DNA from: Amycolatopsis mongoliensis
Lineage (GTDB): Bacteria > Actinomycetota > Actinomycetes > Mycobacteriales > Pseudonocardiaceae
Direction of reading: 5' to 3'
Assembly (NCBI RefSeq): GCF_030285665.1
Contig: NZ_CP127295.1
Coordinates: forward strand, 1,612,001-1,676,000
DNA: 64,000 bases
Shown: positions 50,435 to 51,629 of the stretch, in pieces
Layout of the letters: every line of letters begins with the position of its first letter
Position numbering within the stretch: the stretch's first letter is position 1
The notes under the pieces: generated by a model
Databases searched by the model: none
The model's input: only the letters and a program-made list of their open reading frames with translations
Told to the model about the DNA's origin: nothing
Made by a program: the position numbers and the translations under genes

Positions 50435-50842
50435 TCAGACCCGGCGCCGCTTGGGCGGGCGGCAGCCGTTGTGAGGCTGCGGGGTCACGTCCTGGATGGT
50501 GCCGACCTCGAGGCCGGCCGCCTGCAGCGAGCGGATCGCCGTCTCGCGGCCCGAACCCGGGCCCTTCACGAAGACGTCGACCTTCTTCATGCCGTGCTCG
50601 GCGGCCTTGCGGGCAGCGTTCTCGGCGGCCATCTGCGCGGCGAACGGGGTGGACTTGCGCGAGCCCTTGAAGCCCACGTGACCACTCGACGCCCACGCGA
50701 TCACGGCACCGGTCGGGTCCGTGATCGAGACGATGGTGTTGTTGAAGGTGCTCTTGATGTGCGCGTGACCGTGCGCGACATTCTTCTTTTCCTTGCGGCG
50801 GACCTTCTTGGCCCCCGCCGCAGTACGAGACTTCGGTGGCAT
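50435..50842 (-). CDS. rpsK: 30S ribosomal protein S11
   Basis: S11 lies on the platform of the small subunit. The 135-aa product has the conserved [18 protein letters not shown], the RNA-contacting [20 protein letters not shown], and the C-terminal [18 protein letters not shown]. It is preceded by an AGGAGA ribosome site, which overlaps the region just after the stop of the 61-aa ORF. rpsD follows 23 bp downstream. Confidence 0.98.
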
Positions 50843-50860
50843 GTTCTGAGGGTTCTCCTG

Positions 50861-51046
50861 TTAGCGCGCGTTCTCTTGGTGAGCGGCGACCGCTTCGGCC
50901 TGTCCGCGCCGGATGATCGAACCGGCGTCGGTGTACAGGTTGCGGAGCGCCATCGGGCGGGCGTAGAGCGCCTTGGGCGAAACGCAAGCCGTGCCGCGGC
51001 GCTGGACGCCGCCCATCTGCACGACCTTCTTGCCCTGGACGCTCAC
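50861..51046 (-). CDS. Unrecognised 61-aa protein between rpsM and rpsK
   Basis: A GTG at 51046 overlaps the rpsM stop in the coupling pattern GTGA and opens a 62-codon frame ending TAA, 18 bp before rpsK. It fills an otherwise unexplained 197-bp gap. Only seven of 61 sense codons end in A or T (about 89 percent GC at third positions), the bias of real genes here. The product starts [18 protein letters not shown], has one cysteine ([14 protein letters not shown]), and continues [17 protein letters not shown] and [11 protein letters not shown]. It is basic and has no signal peptide or membrane span. I do not recognise a family; a ribosome-associated or lineage-specific small protein is possible. 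Confidence 0.65.
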
Positions 51047-51423
51047 TTCTTGCCAGCCTTCTTCTTGCCGGCGACCGTCTTCTTCGGACCCTTGCGGGTA
51101 CGGGCGTTGGTCTTCGTGCGCTGACCGCGGACGGGAAGTCCGCGACGCCACCGAAGGCCCTCGTAGCACCCGATCTCGATCTTCCGACGGATGTCGGCGT
51201 TCACCTCGCGGCGAAGGTCACCCTCGACCTTGAAGTTCTCTTCGATGTAGACACGCAGTTTCGCGAGGTCGTCATCGCTGAGGTCTTTGACGCGGGTGTC
51301 CGCGTTGAGCTCGGCAGCCTTGATGAGCTGCTTCGAGCGGGTACGGCCGATGCCGTAGATGTACGTAAGCGCGATCTCCAACCGCTTTTCGCGGGGGAGG
51401 TCTACGCCAGCGAGTCGTGCCAT
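51043..51423 (-). CDS. rpsM: 30S ribosomal protein S13
   Basis: S13 sits in the subunit head and contacts P-site tRNA and the B1 bridges. The 126-aa product starts [20 protein letters not shown], has [14 protein letters not shown] and [20 protein letters not shown], and ends with the basic tail [12 protein letters not shown]. Its stop overlaps the GTG of the 61-aa ORF. The 206-bp gap to rpmJ holds a hairpin at 51554-51575. Confidence 0.98.
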
Positions 51424-51553
51424 TGGCGTTGATGCTCCTTCATAGGTTTCCTCTTCAGGTCTGCTCCCCGTCCGGTTCCGGGACCGACTCGCCTGTCGTG
51501 CCCTCGGCTTGCGCTTCGGGTGTCCCGGCCCCGGCCTGAAGTCCGGGGGTGAA

Positions 51554-51575
51554 CCGGGCCACTCGCGTGGCCCGG
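51554..51575 (-). other. Hairpin in the rpmJ-rpsM spacer
   Basis: Perfect 9-bp arms (CCGGGCCAC, GTGGCCCGG) surround a TCGC tetraloop, in a 206-bp intercistronic stretch (51424-51629) with no gene. It lies 55-76 bp downstream of the rpmJ stop. It is a possible processing, attenuation or S4-type autoregulatory site. Confidence 0.5.
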
Positions 51576-51629
51576 CAGGTGCGGGGAGGGTGTGTAGCCG
51601 TCAATCCACTCTGGTTCGAGTGCGAGTGA

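Follow-up and report, generated by a model that had tools for sequence, protein, structure and literature searches.

The junction between rpsM and rpsK, which encode the ribosomal proteins uS13 and uS11, is among the most conserved gene orders in bacteria. The genes of bS22 and bL37, two small actinobacterial ribosomal proteins, are located outside the alpha operon to which this junction belongs. Two small ribosomal proteins were found in the ribosome of M. smegmatis, and one of them was called unannotated (PMC5876184). bS22 of this species, with a length of 33 aa against 61 aa for the protein considered here, was described as unannotated until ribosome density revealed it (PMC5876184, PMC10085706). 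Like the product of the small gene found between rpsM and rpsK, bS22 and bL37 are small, basic and non-universal in actinobacteria; they were seen by cryo-EM, whereas ribosome binding of the new protein is predicted from gene data (PMC5876184, PMC10085706).

Gene pairs translated by termination-reinitiation are a further point of comparison. According to PMC10666635, overlaps of -4 and -1 are the geometry of such pairs and drive reinitiation, while a spacing of about 20 nt nearly abolishes coupling. The same source reports an excess, among overlapping pairs, of those encoding subunits of a common complex (4.5-fold in E. coli, 1.6-fold over 1,695 species; PMC10666635). The rpsM/small-gene pair shares with these the -4 overlap in GTGA, the -1 overlap in TGATG or a very short gap; known complexes are found among the described pairs, whereas coupling of rpsM to the small gene is predicted from its geometry (PMC10666635). 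The small gene also resembles smORF families in being short, taxonomically restricted and without a database family. It differs from them in its fixed place within the alpha ribosomal-protein operon, no loss being apparent among the carriers of an 80-locus tree. No description of a small gene between rpsM and rpsK was found among the non-subscription papers searched.

Coding evidence and predicted coupling to rpsM

In the window, the 64,000-nt stretch of Amycolatopsis mongoliensis DNA analysed here, rpsM and rpsK are 200 nt apart (Table 1). The first-pass annotation had remarked that this spacing is usually short, and in family members without the small gene (one genome per genus, 27 genera) it is indeed 23-57 nt in 25 genera and -1, an overlap, in two. 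It had also read a minus-strand frame in the gap, from a GTG overlapping the rpsM stop as GTGA to a TAA just before the rpsK ribosome site, and the coordinates confirm this. The 3' end of rpsM (51423-51043, minus strand) reads ...AAGAAGTGA, and the GTG starts one base ahead of the rpsM TGA. Between the TAA of the small gene and the rpsK ATG there are 18 nt.

Table 1. Coordinates of the small gene and its surroundings in the window
Feature	Position	Strand	Basis or remark
Small gene	50861..51046	minus	GTG start, 61 codons, TAA stop, no internal stop; open in 116/116 distinct carrier loci
GTGA overlap of small-gene start and rpsM stop (predicted coupling site)	51043..51046	minus	sequence; geometry kept in carriers
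Small-gene GTG	51046-51044	minus	
rpsM TGA	51045-51043	minus	
Small-gene TAA	50863-50861	minus	
Conserved core, residues 31-46, P-x-A-L-R-x-L-Y-x-D-A-G-x-x-I-R	50909..50956	minus	89 distinct proteins
rpsM (uS13), upstream neighbour	51043..51423	minus	
rpsK (uS11), downstream neighbour	50435..50842	minus	ATG start at 50842
AGGAG, likely rpsK ribosome-binding site	50855..50859	minus	directly after small-gene stop; read from sequence
Covarying RNA structure, rpmJ-rpsM spacer	51465-51587	minus	

The composition of the frame is that of a gene in this region. Seven of its 61 codons end in A or T, a count given correctly in the first-pass annotation. GC content over the first, second and third codon positions is 0.72/0.51/0.89, while rpsK has 0.61/0.53/0.90. 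With five genes from the same operon region as reference, the small frame has a codon-adaptation index of 0.71, whereas its two forward shadow frames reach only 0.27 and 0.22; neighbouring genes scored by leave-one-out give 0.56-0.80. Codon-position GC and codon index thus place the small gene with its neighbours rather than with the shadow frames.

Further evidence came from comparison with relatives. Among 154 distinct rpsM-rpsK spacer sequences, 116 carry the small gene, always between the uS13 and uS11 genes of the ribosomal-protein operon and always open. Carrier spacers are 191-230 nt long, and length differences within the small gene preserve its frame. When all 117 spacers of at least 150 nt were read, 114 fitted the motif, two (L214 and L215) were near variants and one (L129, from another family) held no such gene. 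In the 114, no internal stop occurs in the gene frame, compared with 48, 27, 20, 109 and 73 loci with stops in the other five frames; inspection by eye showed the frame open in L214 and L215 too, two carriers outside this count. One genome (G131) showed a TAG within its search match, which by its coordinates is the gene's own stop, and the locus fetched from it (L211) is open. Since loci were fetched by similarity to the small protein or by the pattern ALRxLY[TL]DAG, conservation of the core is in part selected for.

Changes within the frame follow the pattern of a protein under selection. Among 36 Amycolatopsis-type loci, 12, 13 and 33 columns vary at codon positions 1, 2 and 3, so that 33 of 58 are third positions (binomial P=1.9e-4). 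Summed over 427 of the 630 possible pairs of 36 loci (those of equal rpsK length, which are non-independent), dN/dS is about 0.20 in the small gene, 0.084 in rpsM and 0.029 in rpsK, and dS is 0.117, 0.128 and 0.075, respectively, the value of the small gene being close to that of rpsM and higher than that of rpsK. The third-position excess, the dN/dS and a dS like that of rpsM thus point to selection on the amino acid sequence, with no sign of an additional constraint on the RNA. Moreover, codons of the conserved glycine vary among the 114 loci (GGT 49, GGA 33, GGC 25, GGG 7) while core residues are nonetheless invariant. The first-pass annotation had proposed a search for homologues and a Ka/Ks estimate, and had named as fatal to its reading either the lack of a conserved frame where relatives share the spacer or an equal spread of substitutions over codon positions. 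The frame is conserved and the changes are unequally spread, so this test fails to refute the reading.

A chance open frame in GC-rich DNA would be the simplest alternative to a gene. Such DNA does yield long open frames, and a longer one here (102 aa) extends back into rpsM. The probability of this explanation is nevertheless negligible, given a frame conserved across 19 genera and open in every carrier locus, the third-position bias, the low dN/dS and codons that vary under invariant residues. On the comparative record the small frame is near certain to be a protein-coding gene.

The start of the gene is tied closely to the end of rpsM. Among the 116 carriers, 105 have a GTG overlapping TGA, three an ATG in TGATG and eight a GTG placed 2 nt after TAA or TAG (103, 3 and 8 of the 114, plus L214 and L215). 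All 116 thus show an overlap of -4 or -1 or a gap of 2 nt, including the eight in which rpsM ends in TAA or TAG, and every start falls inside the interval taken to define a termination-reinitiation pair, about -8 to +6 nt from the stop of the upstream gene. TGA is the rpsM stop in 108 of 116 carriers but in only one of 27 family non-carriers. Together with the described geometry of such pairs, the overlap suggests that the small gene is placed for production with S13 (PMC10666635), and termination-reinitiation with S13 is the best reading of how the small protein would be translated. At the other end, the stop lies 12-20 nt before rpsK in the tabulated carriers, and rpsK most likely initiates at its own AGGAG.

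Distribution and origin of the gene

A translated search of 297 Pseudonocardiaceae genomes gave a match in 102. A profile built from 35 homologues then extended this to 115 of the 297 (E<=1e-4), in 19 of 46 genera, leaving 182 without the gene; the 26 genomes listed as the window's own or as its genus all match, in a table that shows only part of the non-matching genomes. Among the best 80 of 91 confirmed relatives (named contigs), all belong to Pseudonocardiaceae genera except one MAG named only Actinomycetes. The carriers in this set are Amycolatopsis, Prauserella, Qaidamihabitans, Saccharomonospora, Haloechinothrix, Thermocrispum, Actinokineospora, Labedaea and Actinophytocola MAGs, and the closest named match is Amycolatopsis pretoriensis (98%).

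In other families no credible homologue was found in the order (397 genomes, and 298 with a deeper profile) or in the class (296 genomes). Twelve order-level matches outside the family had E-values of 1.4e-4 to 0.01, and four class-level genomes had matches at 0.002-0.008, one of which (G344) is also among the twelve. These were rejected as homologues: the match lies away from the genome's own rpsM in nine of the twelve, and in G796, G719 and G344 at class level, in a proximity check that left out G306, G424, G551 and G785. With the deeper profile, all 34 matches at E<=1e-4 in the 298 order genomes fall within the family. The first-pass annotation had announced a new protein inside the most conserved operon; a real gene in rpsM-rpsK stands, but it is restricted to 19 of 46 sampled genera of a single family.

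A tree was built from IF1, S13, S11 and S4 at 80 loci, comprising 42 hand-chosen carriers of the 116 and all 38 others. On the free quick tree the carrier state needs two changes, against a mean of 26.9 after shuffling (0/500 as low). Of the carriers, 41 group together (SH-aLRT 91, not starred); the remaining one, L216, whose source genome is 74% complete, lies beside a non-carrier. A tree that holds all 42 carriers together scored 5.67 log units above the free quick search (AU p 0.63, two trees). These results are compatible with a single gain and no loss, but do not prove it.

The spacers of non-carriers suggest what the gene was built upon. In 15 of 27 of them, counted by eye, the rpsM stop and the rpsK ribosome site are separated by a stretch that includes CCTCGC, which resembles the ...TCGCGC-stop-GGAG end of the small gene. 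From this likeness, it may be inferred that the last codons and stop derive from the old rpsK leader and that the remainder was inserted or grew upstream of it. A gene that entered rpsM-rpsK, coupled by its geometry to S13, and was kept across 19 sampled genera offers a clean before/after comparison within one family.

The encoded protein and its possible function

The small protein has a mass of 6.6 kDa, a pI of 10.9 and a charge of about +6.6. In 89 distinct proteins P31, A33, L34, R35, L37, Y38, G42 and R46 are invariant, and D40 (88), A41 (87), R16, P24, A29 and R30 are nearly so; the short helical core is RPxALRxLYxDAGxxIR, and both ends of the protein differ widely among homologues, in sequence as in length. 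AlphaFold2, given the 89 sequences, returned a model of moderate confidence (pLDDT 68, pTM 0.36) with helices at 24-29, 32-38 and 41-60, in which residues 8-19 score below 50 and the core block 31-50 scores 84-88. The protein is thus modelled as a disordered N-terminus followed by a short helical core.

Database comparison gave no ribosomal-family relative in Pfam (35 members), NCBIfam (89 members) or PDB sequences, where only weak matches appeared, all taken as chance. In Pfam these were SpdB (E 0.024) and SOTI (E 0.056), each in one of 35 members. In NCBIfam, 19 of 89 members hit an ABC-transporter model, the best at E 0.0048 with 16 bits where the cut-off is 406, and a single one hit pyruvate kinase (E 0.05). 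A profile search of all PDB chains, with E up to 10, matched only N-acetylglutamate kinase/synthase (E 0.15-0.17 and 0.44-0.68) and gave no match to bS22 or bL37. Foldseek returned nothing for the first model and, for the second, a single mammalian ribosomal-complex chain (E 8.3, probability 0.03), also taken as chance. The gene therefore represents a testable small-protein family missing from the family libraries searched (Pfam, NCBIfam).

An origin from bS18 was considered because of a likeness seen by eye between LRxxISxRGKI of bS18 and LRxLYTDAGxxI of the small protein, both proteins being basic. The comparison by hhalign with 11 S18 sequences (12 loci) gave a probability of 15.9% in a register other than the one proposed, and bS18 was therefore rejected as a relative. 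The genome has two genes for ribosomal protein S18 (G000:C1:8137926-8138078 and 2457806-2457949).

Taken as a whole, the locus is best explained, with a probability of about one half, by a lineage-specific gene gained once, coupled to S13 and encoding an accessory protein of the ribosome, probably of the 30S subunit. About 160-170 nt would have been inserted, or have grown, ahead of the old rpsK leader, most likely once and within Pseudonocardiaceae, and then been kept. Ribosomes finishing S13 would reinitiate on the overlapping GTG, so that the small protein is made in step with S13, and rpsK would then initiate at its own AGGAG. The flexible, basic tail at the N-terminus, together with the conserved helical core, would most likely dock on the ribosome, probably on 30S or assembly intermediates, where the protein would act as a non-universal accessory component.

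A basic, flexible-tailed protein, predicted to be coupled to S13 and encoded between two 30S proteins, resembles bS22 and bL37, and for this reason binding to the ribosome (30S or assembly) is favoured; both the binding and its placement on 30S are suggested by position, coupling and composition. A ribosomal-protein level of expression, which the first-pass annotation had expected along with a ribosome-linked role, is likewise predicted from the operon position, overlap and composition. With 182 of the 297 family genomes lacking the gene, the ribosomes of close relatives work without the protein, and this absence, with a constraint weaker than that of the neighbours, fits an accessory part better than a core one. 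The stricter statement, that a new small ribosomal-subunit protein was gained once in the ancestor of Amycolatopsis and its relatives and coupled in the rpsM-rpsK operon, is put forward tentatively. If the accessory protein does bind the ribosome, the gene would illustrate the way in which ribosomes acquire new components, here among bacteria known for many antibiotic producers, and a bacterial ribosome would have acquired a protein in recent evolution while sister genera still show the state before the gain.

Signs of contact were sought in the neighbouring proteins. Six columns of S13, S11 and S4 separate carriers from non-carriers by the thresholds used, of which S13 125, S4 188 and S4 191 rest on at most nine non-carriers. 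At S13 92, W occurs in 115 of 116 carriers, while family non-carriers have H in 23 of 27 and W in four; at S11 53, S occurs in 114 of 116 carriers and one of 27 non-carriers, the other 26 having A. Common descent accounts for H92W and A53S, and both L216 and the four non-carriers with W are exceptions to the pattern, so these substitutions were set aside as evidence of contact.

The strongest competing explanation is a real protein with another site of action, for example RNA polymerase, DNA or a further process concerned with small molecules or stress, whose gene sits in the operon only to be expressed strongly and in step with growth. Many neighbours in bacterial operons are functionally unrelated, rpoA lies in this same operon, and no ribosomal family matches the small protein. 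However, the coupling geometry of the start with rpsM, kept in all carriers, goes beyond what shared transcription needs, and the basic composition and disordered tail resemble small ribosomal proteins, which leaves such a non-ribosomal role unlikely, if still the most substantial of the alternatives. Far less probable is a cis-acting translational element, in which translation would matter more than its product, either relaying ribosomes from rpsM to rpsK or stalling or regulating rpsK. The short distance from the small-gene stop to rpsK speaks for it. Arrest peptides carry their motif at the C-terminal end. Here no conserved C-terminal motif was found near the stop: the conserved residues are 31-46 of 61, so that at least 15 residues stand between the core and the variable C-terminus, and it is the amino acids that are conserved rather than the frame alone. 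Near-abolition of coupling at about 20 nt makes a relay unlikely (PMC10666635). The spacer RNA, moreover, folds no better than shuffled versions (z -1.04, 26/200 as good) and has no Rfam match; two matches elsewhere in the window had E 0.55 and 0.64.

Slightly less probable again is a regulator acting in trans on the alpha operon or on ribosome assembly, which would bind the operon mRNA or the rpsM leader and not the mature ribosome. A basic protein encoded in the operon and a covarying RNA upstream of rpsM would suit this role, but the RNA structure is also present in non-carriers, which supply 17 of the 37 aligned loci, and is thus independent of the small protein.

An RNA structure upstream of rpsM

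A covarying RNA structure was observed in the rpmJ-rpsM spacer (Table 1). Two hairpins and a closing stem (CTCCCCG/CGGGGAG) make up the structure, and a conserved ACCTG comes after it. The alignment includes 20 loci with the small gene besides those without, and used 37 of 55 leader stretches, the other 18 being unscored. In these 37 loci, 92.3% of pair cells are standard, compared with 39-62% in slid versions. Two-sided changes occur in 14 of 21 pairs (shuffled mean 6.7, 0/500 as high), for a structure derived from the same alignment.

The structure has no match in Rfam and is a candidate alpha-operon (S4 or S13) leader. PMC7247131 lists S4 leaders ahead of rpsM for Clostridia and Fusobacteriales, but none at this place for Actinobacteria. 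Should the rpmJ-rpsM RNA be a leader of the S4 type, ribosomal-protein feedback would extend to the small gene.

Long rpsM-rpsK spacers without the small gene were also encountered, in L119 and L120 from another family of the order (f16) and in L129 (f32), with lengths of 148, 110 and 169 nt, respectively. The rpmJ-rpsM spacer, measured by script, is only 15 nt in L119 and 13 nt in L120, so the leader may be absent from these two loci or have moved.
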